From a virus, in IMG/VR virus record IMGVR_UViG_3300020129_000256, positions 1 through 21,434 of that record: 21,434 nt of DNA. The stretch is one strand, 5' to 3'. The position numbers were made by a program, and so were the translations under genes. Positions 17 to 21,434 of the stretch are shown here, in pieces; within the stretch, counting starts at the first letter, position 1; each line of letters starts with the position of its first letter. The notes below the pieces were generated by a model. That model saw only the letters and a list, made by a program, of their open reading frames with translations, searched no databases and was not told where the DNA came from.

Positions 17-1315
17 CAGCGTCCGTCCGATCGCGGTCAGCCGGTCGCCCCGGAACGCGCCGGCGTCGCCCTGCTCCGCGCAGTAGAACATCGGTTGCCC
101 GTCGAGCTTGTCGACGACGTACACGCCCAGCGTCGCCGCCGCGACGAACAGCGCAGCCTCCGCCGCGTTCAGCCCGGACGGTTGCGCCCCGTCCGCCAGC
201 AGCAGCATCCCCTCCGCGATCGGCCCGGGTCCGCCCCCGACGTCGTTCGCGATCGCCGGGTAGACCTGCGGCCCCCCACAGGTTCCGACGCCGCCCTGAT
301 CGTTGTAGCTGAACGCGCAGCAGAGCGCGTGCGGGATGACGCCTGCGACGACCTCGTCGTGCGTGATCGTCCCCGCGGCGGTCGGCGCGCCGGACACGGT
401 CACGCCTGCGGACAGGAACGGGGACGCCGAACCCCAGCCGGTCCCGGTTTTCCAGTTGTGACGCGCCCACGCGGCGCAGGACCAGTGTCGGTCGCCGACC
501 TTGTGCAGCTGCCACATATCGACGAGGTCGCCGCTGTCGCGGTTCAGGACGCACAGGTGCCCGTCCGTTCCCGACGCGGGGACCGCGCTGTCGGGCATCG
601 GGAAACGCTGCTGACCGGCAGGCCAACCCCAGGTGTTCGGCATGTCGAACGTGTGCGTCGGGTCGCTGTTCGACGCCCACGCGATCGGGTGACCGTACGC
701 GCCGGCGTTCATGCCGTAGGTCAGCGACCGCAGCCGGTCGTCCGCGCCGGTCGCCCACGCGCCCGGGATCTTGCGTGTGTTCCACAGCGAGCCGGGCACG
801 AACAGCGTCCCCGCCGGCGCGACCTCACCGGCGGCGACCTCGACCTCGACGGTCAGCCGGTTGTTGTCCTCGCTGCCCGGTCCGGCCTCGACGATCCGGT
901 TCGTGTCGTCGACGAACGCGGTCAGCTCGTGCGGCCCCGCGTCGACGGTCGGGACCCACGGTCCGCCTCCCATCGGTGCGGACGCGGTGTCGAGCTGCAC
1001 CGACGCGCCGGCGGCGAGCCCGGCGGACGTGCTGACCCAGGTCACCTGCTCGCCGACCGTCGCCCCGTCGAGCAGGAACCCGACGCCGACGATCGCGCCG
1101 GTCGGGGTCGCCGCGTCGCCCTGGTTGGTGACGACGACGCCGAGCGTCGCGGGTTGCCCCTGCGTGATCCGCGCGGGCACGAGGACGTCGTCGACGACGA
1201 GGTCGACGCCGTCCGGGGTCGGGACCGGTTCGGGGTCGGGCGGATCCGGCGGGACCGGGGTCGTCCCCGCGAGCAGGTCGTCGACCTCGCTGGTCGTGTA
1301 CACGTACTCAGGCAT
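1..1315 (-). CDS. CARDB-domain protein with large C-terminal carbohydrate-active-like domain (3' end runs off the window)
   Basis: The ATG at 1315 overlaps the preceding stop (TAATG). 438 codons are visible and the frame is open at base 1. Joining the window ends adds W-G-stop, giving 440 aa. Residues 1-19 are a short N-terminal segment with no signal peptide, and 20-35 are a Pro/Asp-rich linker. Residues about 38-162 fit a CARDB (Ig-like adhesion) domain, with QGQPATLGVVVTNQGDAAT and the acidic VDDTNRIVEAG...DNN signature near the end. Residues about 170-438 form a second domain with motifs DGHLCVLN (251-258), EVVAGVIPHALCCAF (321-335) and LGVYVVD (396-402). From memory these resemble a family of exported actinobacterial proteins of unknown fold and activity, often linked to carbohydrate-binding modules. 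A host-surface binding or depolymerase role is inference. It lies well away from the tail genes, among small accessory genes, which is unusual for a receptor-binding protein. I am confident that it is coding and weak on function. Confidence 0.85.
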   Translation of the reverse strand, partial: MPEYVYTTSEVDDLLAGTTPVPPDPPDPEPVPTPDGVDLVVDDVLVPARITQGQPATLGVVVTNQGDAATPTGAIVGVGFLLDGATVGEQVTWVSTSAGLAAGASVQLDTASAPMGGGPWVPTVDAGPHELTAFVDDTNRIVEAGPGSEDNNRLTVEVEVAAGEVAPAGTLFVPGSLWNTRKIPGAWATGADDRLRSLTYGMNAGAYGHPIAWASNSDPTHTFDMPNTWGWPAGQQRFPMPDSAVPASGTDGHLCVLNRDSGDLVDMWQLHKVGDRHWSCAAWARHNWKTGTGWGSASPFLSAGVTVSGAPTAAGTITHDEVVAGVIPHALCCAFSYNDQGGVGTCGGPQVYPAIANDVGGGPGPIAEGMLLLADGAQPSGLNAAEAALFVAAATLGVYVVDKLDGQPMFYCAEQGDAGAFRGDRLTAIGRTLRAVKT

Positions 1316-1551
1316 TAGAACAGCGCCTCCTGGTCGGGGTCGTGCTCGGGCTCGTGTTCGGTTCGGTTCGGTGGCTGCCAGCCCGCGCAATCGCGCCGGC
1401 AGACCCGACAGCGCATCCCGTCAGTGTGGTCGTCGAGGTCGTGTCCGCAGCCGTGCGGTCCCCAGCCGTTCGGCCAGGGGTGACAGACCGTGTGACGCGC
1501 CGGCGGCGACAGGGGTCCGCACACGTCGCAGGGGACGAGCGGGTACGTCAC
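1315..1551 (-). CDS. Small cysteine-rich zinc-ribbon protein
   Basis: A 78-aa protein with CDVC near the N-terminus and a second cluster, CGH...CRVCRRDC, in the middle, plus several histidines. This pattern suggests one or two structural zinc sites. The C-terminus is acidic and polar (NRTEHEPEHDPDQ). I chose the GTG at 1551 because a GGGAGGA ribosome-binding site lies 8 nt upstream, inside an element repeated before two other genes. An alternative GTG at 1593 would overlap the upstream stop as GTGA and add 14 residues. The TAA stop overlaps the ATG of the CARDB gene. Function unknown; such proteins are frequent in actinobacteriophage accessory regions. Confidence 0.75.
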   Translation of the reverse strand: MTYPLVPCDVCGPLSPPARHTVCHPWPNGWGPHGCGHDLDDHTDGMRCRVCRRDCAGWQPPNRTEHEPEHDPDQEALF

Positions 1552-1589: not shown

Positions 1590-1820
1590 TCACCGCGCCC
1601 CGTTGCGCGCCCCCAGCTCGGCGAACATCCCCGACGCGAGTAGCAGCAGCTCGACGAGGTCGAGGTCGTCGAACAGCTCTAGGCGGATCGACGCCAGCTG
1701 TCGGAGTGTCGCGGCGTCGACCCCGCGTTGCGCCGCGGCGGCGACCAGCTCGGCGAGGACCCGGTCGACGTGCTGTCGGGATCCGATGCGCTCGACCTCG
1801 TCGGTCGTGTCGTTCAGCAC
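1590..1820 (-). CDS. Small helical protein of unknown function
   Basis: A 76-aa protein. The GTG at 1820 is preceded by a good ribosome-binding site (GGAAGGA, about 6 nt upstream) and lies 16 nt after the stop of the winged-helix gene. The sequence is strongly helical and rich in Ala, Leu, Asp and Glu (LAELVAAAAQRG, LELFDDLDLVELLLLASG), with no cysteines and no membrane segment. The composition suggests a small helical-bundle or coiled-coil protein. Its position directly after the probable replication initiator could mean a replication accessory role, but nothing in the sequence shows this. Confidence 0.75.
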   Translation of the reverse strand: MLNDTTDEVERIGSRQHVDRVLAELVAAAAQRGVDAATLRQLASIRLELFDDLDLVELLLLASGMFAELGARNGAR

Positions 1821-1836
1821 GTCGTTTCCTTCCCGT

Positions 1837-2268
1837 TCACCTGCGCAGCCGAGCGCGGACGTCCGCGGGCATCGGTACCCGCTCGTCGCTGTCCACAGCA
1901 TTATCCCCAGCAGGTGTACCGGCAGTCGGCACACACACCCCTTGTGATTCTTGTGATTCTTGTTCTTTCGTCGCGCCAGTCGGTACACCTAACCCCGCCA
2001 GTCGGTACACCTGTACCGGTACCCGGTACACGTTCGCGTGCCCGCGCCGGCCGCGCCGGACGACCTCGACGAGCCCGGCCGCGGACAGCTGCTCGACCGC
2101 GCCGGGCACGGTCGACGTGCTGACGTGCGCCCAGCGCGCCAGCGTCCGCATCCCCGGCCAGCACAGCCCGTCGTCGTCCGCCGCGAGCGCCAGGGCGCAC
2201 AGGACGGACCAGCTCGTGCCCTTGACGTCGGTTGCGTCCCGAGCCCACAGATACGCGGCCCAGGACAC
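1837..2268 (-). CDS. Winged-helix DNA-binding protein, probable replication initiator
   Basis: A 143-aa protein. The GTG at 2268 follows the upstream stop by one base. Residues about 15-75 form a winged helix: LCALALAADDDGLCWPG, then RTLARWAHVSTSTVPGAVEQ (recognition helix) and LVEVVRRGRRGHANVYRV (wing). This matches the HTH_36-like domains found at the N-terminus of phage replisome organisers and DnaD-like proteins. After the wing comes a low-complexity linker (TKEQESQESQ) and a short C-terminal tail. The DNA encoding the wing end, linker and tail holds iterons, an AT-rich tract and DnaA-box-like sequences, much as the lambda origin lies inside gene O. That makes an initiator more likely than a plain transcription regulator, though the latter is not excluded. 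Confidence 0.8.
   Translation of the reverse strand: MSWAAYLWARDATDVKGTSWSVLCALALAADDDGLCWPGMRTLARWAHVSTSTVPGAVEQLSAAGLVEVVRRGRRGHANVYRVPVQVYRLAGLGVPTGATKEQESQESQGVCVPTAGTPAGDNAVDSDERVPMPADVRARLRR
1870..2031. other. Candidate replication origin inside the winged-helix gene
   Basis: Seen directly on the plus strand: CTGTCCACA (1889-1897) and TTATCCCCA (1901-1909), each one base from known DnaA-box forms and 12 bp apart; AGGTGTACCG (1912-1921); an AT-rich tandem of TTGTGATTC (1942-1950, 1951-1959) and TTGTTCTTT (1960-1968); two exact 17-bp direct repeats CGCCAGTCGGTACACCT (1974-1990, 1996-2012; 22-bp period); and the inverted repeat TGTACCGG-TAC-CCGGTACA (2012-2030). The 1912 element is the repeat core in opposite orientation. 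Iterons flanking an AT-rich tract, next to DnaA boxes and inside a DNA-binding protein gene, fit a theta-type origin. Function is inferred. Confidence 0.55.
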
Positions 2269-2269
2269 G

Positions 2270-2470
2270 TCAGGGCGTGTGACGCCTCGTGCGGCCCTGC
2301 TCGGCGCGCCGAGCCGCCGCGGCGGCCCGGTCGAACCGGCCCCGGTGCGGACGGTCGCTGCGCCCCTTGCGCGCGCTGACGCAGGGCTGACAGGGCAGCG
2401 CCCCACAGTCCGGGCACAGCACGCGCAGCTCCGGCGGGTATCGCACGAACGGATCAGGTCGACCGGGCAC
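2270..2470 (-). CDS. Small zinc-ribbon protein
   Basis: A 66-aa protein. The GTG at 2470 lies 6 nt after GGGAGG in the second copy of the repeated start-associated element, which decides this start over in-frame upstream alternatives. The core CPDCGALPCQPC is a compact zinc-ribbon pattern, followed by a basic segment with paired His/Arg (SDRPHRGRF) and an Arg/Ala-rich helix. Proteins of this type (CPxCGA-x-PxxxC-x-HxxR) are common in actinobacteriophages and lack a known role. It lies directly upstream of the winged-helix gene and is probably co-translated with it. Confidence 0.75.
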   Translation of the reverse strand: MPGRPDPFVRYPPELRVLCPDCGALPCQPCVSARKGRSDRPHRGRFDRAAAAARRAEQGRTRRHTP

Positions 2471-2475
2471 AGGTG

Positions 2476-2489
2476 TCCTCCCAGGGTTC
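2476..2489 (-). promoter_or_regulatory. Start-associated RBS element, copy 2
   Basis: Minus-strand GAACCCTGGGAGGA, identical over 14 bases to the copy at 1572-1559 and placed 5 nt before the GTG at 2470. The flanking inverted repeat is weaker here. Confidence 0.6.
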
Positions 2490-2493
2490 AGGG

Positions 2494-2610
2494 TCACCGC
2501 AGCCACACGGTCAGCGCCCACGCGACGCCGAGCAGCGACAGGGACCACACGAGCACGAGCACGAGCTGCGTCGCCGGACGCAGGTCGTCGAGGTCGTCGT
2601 CGTCACGCAT
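2494..2610 (-). CDS. 38-residue membrane miniprotein
   Basis: ATG at 2610, overlapping the end of the preceding gene by 8 nt; TGA at 2496-2494. The N-terminus is very acidic (MRDDDDLDDL) and is followed by one hydrophobic helix (about residues 16-36, QLVLVLVWSLSLLGVAWALTV). The layout fits a single-pass inner-membrane peptide with a negatively charged N-terminus. Function unknown. It is supported by its place in the run of overlapping genes and by the clean membrane segment, but it is short enough that doubt remains. Confidence 0.6.
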   Translation of the reverse strand: MRDDDDLDDLRPATQLVLVLVWSLSLLGVAWALTVWLR

Positions 2611-2928: not shown

Positions 2929-3224
2929 GACGTCGCCTCGCGTCGGTTGCGCAGCGCGACCAGGAACGCCGCCGCGGTCGCCGGGGTCGCGTCGAGCGTG
3001 TCGGTCAGCTCGGCGAACACGAGCGCGTCCTGCTCGGCAGCCTCCGCGGCTTCCAGGTAGGCCAGGGCGTGCGCCCGCAGCTCGTCCGGGGTCAGCTGCC
3101 CGATCAGCTCGACGTCGAACGACCCGACCTTGCCCGACGCCCGCACCTGCACGAAACCGGCCCCGGTCGCCTCGCTGACCCCGGACAGCATCGTGACGTC
3201 GTCGAGGTCGCCGAACCGGGTCAC
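2925..3224 (-). CDS. Hypothetical protein downstream of the annealing protein
   Basis: 99 aa. The GTG at 3224 overlaps the upstream stop as GTGA. The N-terminal part is predicted beta-rich (GFVQVRASGKVGSFDVELIGQL). The C-terminal part is helical (PDELRAHALAYLEAAEAAEQDALVFAEL and a final helix ending LRNRREATS). No family is recognised. Tight coupling to the RecT-like gene suggests co-expression and possibly a recombination or DNA-handling partner, but no exonuclease motif is visible. Confidence 0.75.
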   Translation of the reverse strand: MTRFGDLDDVTMLSGVSEATGAGFVQVRASGKVGSFDVELIGQLTPDELRAHALAYLEAAEAAEQDALVFAELTDTLDATPATAAAFLVALRNRREATS

Positions 3225-4072
3225 TGCTGCCACGGTTCCGCGTCCTCGTCGCGCATCCCGCCCGCGGCGAACGTGTCGCCGACGCCCGGGTCGGTCTGCT
3301 CGGGTGCGGGCGGACCCAGCAGCTCCCACAGCGCGCCGGCAGGCCAGGGCGCGTCGATCTGCGCGATCCGGTGTCGACGTCGGAACAGCTGACGTGACCG
3401 GTCGGACAGCCGCCCGAACGCTTCGCGCGCCGCGGCCTGTCGGGCGTCGTCGAACGCCGCCGAGCCCGACGCGTCGCCTCCCGCAACGGACGACGCCCCG
3501 CGCGACGTCGGGCTCGGCTGCGGATCGTCAGCGGACCCGGGGCTGCTGACCCCGGGTCCGCCTATGCGACCGGCCTGCGGACCGGGCGCGTCCTCGTCGT
3601 CGAGGTCGCTGTCGCGCAGGTAGGGCGCGAACTGCGGATCGACGCGGATGGGGTCGAACGCGTTGCGCAGCGCGCGTCGGGTCGCCCTGGTGATCGCCTG
3701 CGCTTCCGGGTCCTCTTTCCCTTCGGCGAACCCGCAGCCGGCGCGTCCGTCGAACCCGTGCGCGCAGCCTTTGCGCCACACGGTCACGAACGCCCGCCAG
3801 CCATTCCCGCCTTCACTGCTGTCGATCGTGATCCCGTCGAGCTGCCCGGACGCGAGCGCGATATGCCGATACCCGTCCGCGGTGATGTAGACCTGCGGTC
3901 CCCGGTTGCCCTTGCCCGGGATGACCTCGACCTGACGTAACGCGGGGTCGAGGTCGTACCGTTCGCACAGCAGCAGGAACAGCCGCCCGAGCGGACGTTC
4001 GACCGCGTCGCGCGGGACCCCGGCGTGAACCATCACGTCGACCGTCGGCGCGGCGCGCACGACCTCAGCCAC
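3221..4072 (-). CDS. RecT/Bet-like single-strand annealing protein
   Basis: 283 aa; the GTG at 4072 overlaps the previous gene by 8 nt. The N-terminal half carries the layout of RecT/Bet-type annealing proteins: LCERYDLDPALRQVEVI (about 35-51), a beta pair VYITADGYRHIALASGQLDG (about 61-80), WRAFVTVWRKG (about 92-102) and AQAITRATRRALRNAF (about 124-139). Family members coat and anneal single-stranded DNA for recombination or recombination-dependent replication. Residues about 150-210 are Gly/Pro/Ser/Asp-rich and probably disordered. The last 70 residues include a helical, basic segment (RSRQLFRRRHRIAQ). No partner exonuclease is visible nearby, which is unusual. The assignment rests on motif pattern alone. 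Confidence 0.65.
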   Translation of the reverse strand: MAEVVRAAPTVDVMVHAGVPRDAVERPLGRLFLLLCERYDLDPALRQVEVIPGKGNRGPQVYITADGYRHIALASGQLDGITIDSSEGGNGWRAFVTVWRKGCAHGFDGRAGCGFAEGKEDPEAQAITRATRRALRNAFDPIRVDPQFAPYLRDSDLDDEDAPGPQAGRIGGPGVSSPGSADDPQPSPTSRGASSVAGGDASGSAAFDDARQAAAREAFGRLSDRSRQLFRRRHRIAQIDAPWPAGALWELLGPPAPEQTDPGVGDTFAAGGMRDEDAEPWQQ

Positions 4073-20588: not shown

Positions 20589-20608
20589 TTCTCCCAGGGT
20601 TCGGAACC
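20589..20608 (-). promoter_or_regulatory. Start-associated RBS element, copy 3, with inverted repeat
   Basis: Minus-strand GAACCCTGGGAGAA (20602-20589), 13 of 14 bases identical to copies 1 and 2, placed 3 nt before the ATG at 20585. GGTT-CCG-AACC (20608-20598) is an overlapping inverted repeat. Confidence 0.6.
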
Positions 20609-20637: not shown

Positions 20638-20871
20638 CTAGGGTCGGGGCTCGTCGCCCGGGTCCGCGGGGACTTGCCTCCCAGGGTTCGGACCCGCGGG
20701 CTCGGGCACGACGCAGTCGAGCCGAGCGCCGCCGTGCCCGTCAGCGTGTCGTTCAGCCCCGGCCCTCGTGTGCAGCAGCTCGCCGCACGTGTGGCAGCGC
20801 CACCGGCCCCGTCCGGTCCCGCGGCGTGTCACAGGCGCACACAGCCGGTCTGACGGACGGTCCGGGTCCAC
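20638..20871 (-). CDS. C2H2-like zinc finger protein
   Basis: 77 aa from the GTG at 20871; an in-frame TGA near 20904 rules out a much earlier start. The finger RWRCHTCGELLHTRAGAERHADGHGG (about 23-48) has the C-x2-C-x12-H-x3-H spacing of a single C2H2-type finger. The C-terminal 25 residues are Pro/Gly-rich. The DNA coding for that tail contains the fourth start-associated element, so the true end or a nested signal is uncertain. A DNA- or RNA-binding role is possible. Confidence 0.68.
   Translation of the reverse strand: MDPDRPSDRLCAPVTRRGTGRGRWRCHTCGELLHTRAGAERHADGHGGARLDCVVPEPAGPNPGRQVPADPGDEPRP
20676..20695 (-). promoter_or_regulatory. Start-associated-like element, copy 4, without a start codon after it
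   Basis: Minus-strand GAACCCTGGGAGGC (20689-20676), 13 of 14 bases identical to copies 1 and 2, with GGGT-CCGA-ACCC (20695-20684) overlapping. No ATG or GTG lies within the usual distance downstream. It falls within the tail of the zinc finger gene, about 87 bp upstream of copy 3. Confidence 0.45.
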
Positions 20872-21103: not shown

Positions 21104-21399
21104 GGCCACGGGGTCGCCTCGTCGAGCTGCGTCCCGGCCGGGATCCCGACCCACGCCGGGTGACGTTCGCCGGTGTCGCCGTCGAACACGACGACGACGA
21201 GGGGACCGGCCAGCTGCGCGGCGCGCGCCAGCTCGCCGACGTGCTCGGCGTCGAGCGCGCCCAGCAGCTCGGGCTCGTCGGTCGGGGTCAGCAGCCGGAC
21301 CAGCAGCCGGGTCCCGCGGCCGTCGTACACGTGCAGCACGACACCGCCCGGCGCGACGCCCGGCGCGAGCCGTTCGGGTCCGGGTCGGATCACCCCCAT
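21100..21399 (-). CDS. Hypothetical protein after the CARDB gene
   Basis: 99 aa. ATG at 21399. After closure of the genome, the CARDB gene's stop (TGG GGG TGA) overlaps this start. The sequence is beta-rich (GVVLHVYDGRGTRLLVRLL), then a helix (LLGALDAEHVGELARAAQL), then a strand (GPLVVVVFDGDTG) and a final loop. It resembles a small alpha/beta domain but matches nothing I can name. Confidence 0.75.
   Translation of the reverse strand: MGVIRPGPERLAPGVAPGGVVLHVYDGRGTRLLVRLLTPTDEPELLGALDAEHVGELARAAQLAGPLVVVVFDGDTGERHPAWVGIPAGTQLDEATPWP
21354..21378. repeat. Inner arm of a 25-bp terminal inverted repeat
   Basis: Perfect reverse complement of 21410-21434, with 31 bases between the arms. It lies inside the 99-aa gene, so this copy is the native one. 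Confidence 0.7.
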
Positions 21400-21413
21400 G
21401 TTTTGACCGCCCG
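21398..21413. repeat. Terminal direct repeat, right copy
   Basis: Exact copy of bases 1-16. Joining the copies restores a complete reading frame across the junction, with a stop overlapping the next start codon. Confidence 0.75.
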
Positions 21414-21434
21414 AACGGCTCGCGCCGGGCGTCG
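21410..21434. repeat. Outer arm of the terminal inverted repeat; probable fold-back artefact
   Basis: Perfect reverse complement of 21354-21378, ending exactly at the window edge. It shares CCCG (21410-21413) with the direct repeat, which gives a microhomology point where a strand switch could have occurred. Confidence 0.65.

Follow-up and report, generated by a model that had tools for sequence, protein, structure and literature searches.

Origins nested in initiator genes

In phage lambda, the origin iterons and an AT-rich region are located in the middle of the O gene, and the O protein binds the iterons. The minimum for unwinding is two iterons and the AT-rich tract (PMC7466680). RepC plasmids (repABC) likewise nest their origin within the initiator gene at an A+T-rich region, and replication is lost when the A+T content is altered by silent mutations (PMC3155836). 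In iteron plasmid origins of the RK2 oriV type, DnaA boxes, iterons and an AT-rich DUE are situated side by side, and DnaA can deliver DnaB (PMC4980987).

The stretch of DNA analysed here (the window) corresponds to an entire IMG/VR virus record (21,434 bp). It probably carries a phage replication origin of the lambda-O type, placed inside the gene that encodes the initiator itself. Like lambda O/ori-lambda, it has a winged-helix initiator gene, iterons just behind the winged-helix part, an AT-rich tract next to them, and a linker encoded by the (in the window, putative) origin. The iteron spacings are 20–24 bp in lambda and 21 and 22 bp in the window. The window differs from lambda in that its protein lacks the C-terminal domain of lambda O and no lambda P gene was recognisable, whereas an inverted iteron and two DnaA-like boxes are added beyond the AT tract. 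The repC gene differs in having no iterons or DnaA boxes and in encoding a plasmid initiator of another family. RK2 oriV resembles the window in the neighbourhood of boxes, iterons and AT-rich DNA. The RK2 origin is not known to lie within an O-like gene, and its initiator family is different. Nesting of the lambda O/ori kind is thus already known; what is unusual here is the reduced initiator with almost no C-terminal domain, the two DnaA-like boxes, and a phage without recognised replication enzymes.

Every recognised gene in the record lies on the minus strand. The best GenBank relatives of the terminase are 15–17-kb Arthrobacter and Gordonia phages (~33% identity). The other minus-strand genes are portal, protease, capsid, major tail, tape-measure and amidase genes, a RecT-like ORF (3221–4072) with weak matches to RecT/Bet-like single-strand annealing proteins, and the O-like gene. 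The original prediction that no polymerase or helicase is encoded agrees with the window ORFs scanned, none of which matched either. A helicase loader was not recognised among the subset of ORFs scanned in this possibly incomplete record. The cumulative GC skew falls steadily along the window and does not turn at 1.9 kb, where a switch had been proposed as a check; the recognised genes are all on one strand.

Two further features of the record were observed. At its 3′-end, positions 21410–21434 are a perfect 25-bp inverted copy of 21354–21378, 31 bp earlier, and bases 1–16 recur at 21399–21414. The probable cause is a fold-back where a circular or terminally redundant assembly ends. The exact 11-mer TCCCAGGGTTC occurs four times, always on the plus strand (1562–1572, 2479–2489, 20592–20602 and 20679–20689); its coding-strand reading is GAACCCTGGGA. 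Three or four of the copies immediately precede the start of a minus-strand gene, GGGAG being the likely Shine-Dalgarno sequence. We take these 11-mers to be reminiscent of the start-associated sequences in cluster K mycobacteriophages.

A short O-like initiator and the repeats within its gene

The initiator gene (1837–2268, minus strand) encodes 143 aa. The GTG at 2268 was taken as the start because an MS... start is common to relatives, and the motif DDDGLCWP is also common to them. The protein matched PHROG 11896 'primosomal protein' (E 2e-15), 1032 'replication initiation protein' (3e-11), 391 and 8540, both 'replication initiation O-like' (3e-11 and 2e-10), and also 678 'O-like' and 270 'replication initiation protein'. 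In Pfam, it matched HTH_36 at 3e-5, just under the curated cut-off. Phage_rep_O (PF04492), which lambda O matches at 6e-36, was not among its matches.

The AlphaFold2 model comprises a winged helix (approximately residues 1–84), a helix (85–92), a disordered linker (93–134), and a C-terminal helix (135–142). The block pLDDT was at least 85 up to residue 90 and approximately 50 in the linker, falling below 50 at residues 99–104. Beyond the inverted iteron, only about 24 residues with one short helix remain in the model, and a C-terminal domain behind the candidate origin for contact with a helicase loader is absent. O-like relatives are mostly 218–340 aa long vs 143 aa in the window. Among the BFVD matches are replication protein O of phage Min27 and further HTH proteins of 87–165 residues, so O-like proteins of small size are not confined to the window.

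No close relative of the initiator was found in phages, plasmids or genome contigs by pairwise alignment, and tblastn against plasmids gave no match; a broader alignment yielded 21 bacterial loci. Among PDB folds, entries titled 'Structure of initiator' and 'Structure of Rep-DNA complex' matched the protein at weak E-values. Relatives sought through the portal, terminase and capsid were fragments or too distant, and a search of them with the O model was negative for O-like genes, as it was for the best terminase match, Gordonia phage Emperor. A scan with RecT yielded no relative.

On the coding strand, the gene reads in the order winged helix, iterons 3, 2 and 1, AT-rich tract, inverted (dyad) iteron, two DnaA-box-like 9-mers, and stop. 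Iteron 1 (1974–1990), which adjoins the AT-rich tract, and iteron 2 (1996–2012) both read AGGTGTACCGACTGGCG on the minus strand. They are exact copies in different reading frames, and their 17-mers (CGCCAGTCGGTACACCT) are 22 bp apart from start to start. Iteron 3, CGTGTACCGGGTACCGG (2016–2032, minus strand), is 21 bp from iteron 2 and carries CGTGTACCG at 2032–2024. The palindromic half-sites TGTACCGGTACC (2012–2023), listed as a dyad, join iterons 3 and 2. A palindrome of GGTACA words had been reported here; its sequence, TGTACCGGTACCCGGTACAC, is indeed present at 2012–2031, but it is really the third iteron plus the adjoining half-site, since GTGTACCG recurs on the minus strand at 2031, 2010 and 1988 (steps of 21 and 22 bp). 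An inverted copy of GTGTACCG is located at 1914 on the plus strand.

The AT-rich tract (1929–1968), a candidate DNA unwinding element, contains CTTGTGATT twice in tandem (1941–1958) and encodes approximately residues 100–113, a part of the disordered linker. The inverted iteron GGTGTACCGGCAGTCG is fused to a degenerate direct copy (1911–1936, plus strand) and forms the 21-bp near-palindrome GTGTgCCGaCtGcCGGtACAC. The inverted copy spans 1911–1929 (84%) and the degenerate direct copy 1920–1936. The DnaA-box-like 9-mers TTATCCCCA (1901–1909) and CTGTCCACA (1889–1897), each with at most one mismatch to TTRTCCACA, are 12 bp apart on the plus strand in one 21-bp stretch beside the iterons. One of the two departs at a conserved base. 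The predicted elements (the exact 17-bp pair 22 bp apart, the inverted copy, the AT-rich tandem, the reinterpreted palindrome, and the two DnaA-like 9-mers) were all recovered in place.

The 17-bp pair is the sole exact direct repeat of at least 16 bp within 130 bp in the whole 21.4-kb window. A 17-mer pair appeared in 2.7% of Markov-shuffled windows, and synonymous recoding of the gene gave a longest repeat of at most 14 vs 17 observed (0/500). GC content also reaches its minimum for the contig here: at window sizes of 40, 60 and 100 bp, the lowest values are 42.5, 48.3 and 54% (windows starting at 1929, 1933 and 1892, respectively) vs a contig mean of 70.8%. At up to one mismatch, TTRTCCACA has two sites in 21.4 kb where 2.1 are expected. 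The number of DnaA-like 9-mers is therefore ordinary, but their position is not, as both fall beside the iterons. The repeat, the AT minimum, and the 9-mers are each modest alone; their coincidence within approximately 160 bp is not.

The same parts stand in the same order as in lambda, and binding, opening and origin activity are therefore inferred by analogy. By this analogy, the winged-helix protein from 1837–2268 (minus strand) would bind the GTGTACCG iterons, which are in phase (2032, 2011 and 1989), as well as their inverted copy (1913–1928). The nucleoprotein complex would open the adjacent AT-rich tract (1929–1968), and the host replisome would enter there.

Repeats behind the winged helix in O-like relatives

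Loci with O-like genes were drawn from IMG/VR, GenBank phages and GTDB genomes, giving 42 non-redundant loci. The densest direct-repeat cluster was sought in up to 5 kb around each O-like gene, and its expected place was defined as −30 to +260 bp from the winged-helix end. The densest cluster lay directly behind the winged-helix coding part in 34 of the 42 loci (the scan output was 35, from which L080, a locus without any repeat, was removed). The binomial probability against uniform placement is ~5e-33, a value to be read as a guide only because the loci, although non-redundant, are not independent. Lambda served as positive control, and the scan placed its annotated iterons at +29. The commonest iteron spacing across loci was 22 bp, the same as in the window. 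The original prediction of a lambda O style cluster over the linker of a DNA-binding protein gene is supported by both the PHROG matches and the layout of the relatives.

No repeat cluster was found at the expected place in L006, L053, L071, L077, L080, L082 and L083 (the ORF of L083 is incomplete), and L013 has a stronger array elsewhere. Strong arrays away from the O-like gene occur at approximately 4820 in L013 (GGCGCGGC-type, 20-bp period) and at approximately 5920 in L032; they do not look origin-like.

The Decurrovirus phages, represented by Maggie gp23 and Kels gp21 (PHROG 8540), share with the window an O-like gene and phased palindromic repeats behind the winged helix. Gp23 of the Arthrobacter phage Maggie matches PHROG 8540 at 5e-104, and its gene carries two exact copies of a 23-bp sequence, spaced by 25 bp, behind the winged helix. 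Decurrovirus differs from the window in its iteron (TACCCC[CG]GGGGGGGTA, spacing 25), its cysteine-rich, zinc-ribbon-like C-terminal domain, and the lack of a DnaA-like box nearby. The small zinc-finger ORF directly upstream of the window's initiator (2270–2548, minus strand) matches PF24623 Phage_zn_bind_8 at 4e-7, above the curated cut-off. It was considered as a split-off Maggie C-terminal domain and rejected, as there is no significant similarity. In Arthrobacter phage Atraxa (NC_070767; L094), an unannotated cysteine-rich small ORF at approximately 14204–14375 matches the Maggie C-terminal domain without a winged helix, so that this domain also occurs alone.

Compensating one-base indels in Kels and Arielagos (78% protein identity) have moved the repeat stretch into another reading frame. 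Maggie and Kels both retain two iteron copies at the 25-bp spacing, in frames that differ, while the peptide across the iterons changes from IPPGGYVPDTPGGV to GTPGGVSGTYPGGGI. The frame is shifted and the DNA repeats are kept, which shows selection on DNA. This is a clean natural experiment for selection on DNA within a coding region, and it gives the predicted pattern of conserved DNA repeats and a varying linker in Maggie vs Kels, not in close kin of the window's own initiator. The Curtobacterium phage Penoan also has dyad iterons inside its O-like gene. Its iteron is another one, GGACCGACCGGTCC, in three or four copies 23–24 bp apart; the protein is larger (~250 aa) and the repeats lie farther from the winged helix (+195). 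Both Maggie and Penoan, with genomes of 15.6 and 15.3 kb, are ultra-small actinophages with nested repeats. In the Penoan record (MZ333133; L093), the O-like gene (553–1416, minus strand) is annotated as hypothetical and overlaps a hypothetical plus-strand CDS (880–1416), which is probably spurious.

The repeats might be an accident of low-complexity coding or of peptide repeats, and the predicted disorder of the linker, which leaves the protein sequence free to drift, is compatible with this. The probability of such an accident is very small. The repeat copies stand in different frames in the window and in at least two frames in 18/18 families checked, so peptide repeats are excluded as the cause and that explanation was rejected. 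Synonymous recoding never reached the observed repeat, and the DNA repeat stayed in Kels while the frame shifted. These results bear out the earlier view that the DNA element dictates the linker. The sequences themselves establish the gene family, iterons and AT tract of the window and, from the relatives, that selection favours the DNA over the peptide.

Alternatively, the repeats could be an operator through which the winged-helix protein regulates its own gene, with replication beginning elsewhere or via recombination. PDB searches show a fold similar to that of MarR/GntR-type regulators, and a RecT-like ORF is present for a recombination start. However, the strong family matches are all to replication initiators and not to repressors, and, as in lambda, the iterons have the AT-rich tract beside them. 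In addition, the O-like gene adjoins a helicase, helicase-loader or lambda P-like gene in L001, L053, L055 and L057, and nested repeats are present in the O-like genes of L001, L055 and L057. We consider an operator improbable.

Helicase loading and implications

For a nested lambda-O-type origin, the loading of DnaB is the least certain step. The initiator lacks the C-terminal domain found in most relatives and no loader is recognisable, which leaves two routes: DnaB may be loaded by host DnaA on the adjacent boxes or through a 78-aa ORF (1590–1826, minus strand). This ORF is directly downstream of the initiator, in the lambda P position, and from its position is possibly a helicase-recruiting partner. 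It gave no PHROG or confident Pfam match.

It is nearly an even chance that the origin stands as described and that DnaB arrives through ORF 1590–1826 as a lambda-P analogue or through a host loader, the DnaA-like 9-mers being there by chance; this is compatible with the explanation preferred here. The ORF is placed like lambda P and like the helicase loaders of DelaGarza and Psychrobacter phage Y8A, but no resemblance to loaders was detected. O-like relatives show no enrichment of DnaA-like boxes (0.36 vs 0.25 per kb), and about two matches are expected in the contig. Against chance, both 9-mers fall in one 21-bp stretch by the iterons and nowhere else.

In a more speculative version of the nested origin, an O-type initiator has been cut to its DNA-binding half and helicase loading has been handed to host DnaA at the two boxes in the gene. 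We regard this hybrid origin as rather unlikely, because DnaA-like boxes do not characterise the O-like family and chance alone would place two somewhere in the contig. If it is true, the whole phage-encoded initiation machinery would be approximately 430 bp that serve as gene and origin at once.

In the cultured 15-kb Arthrobacter and Curtobacterium phages, the replication gene is annotated just as 'helix-turn-helix' or hypothetical, and the terms 'DNA replication' and 'helix-turn-helix' do not occur in the main text of the Maggie-cluster paper (PMC5513430). The 42 loci give the rule that iterons begin at the winged-helix end and are approximately 22 bp apart. This rule could predict origins and the binding sites of O-like proteins from sequence alone. 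The window itself offers a concrete candidate origin in an ultra-small actinophage-like virus without a recognised replication enzyme.
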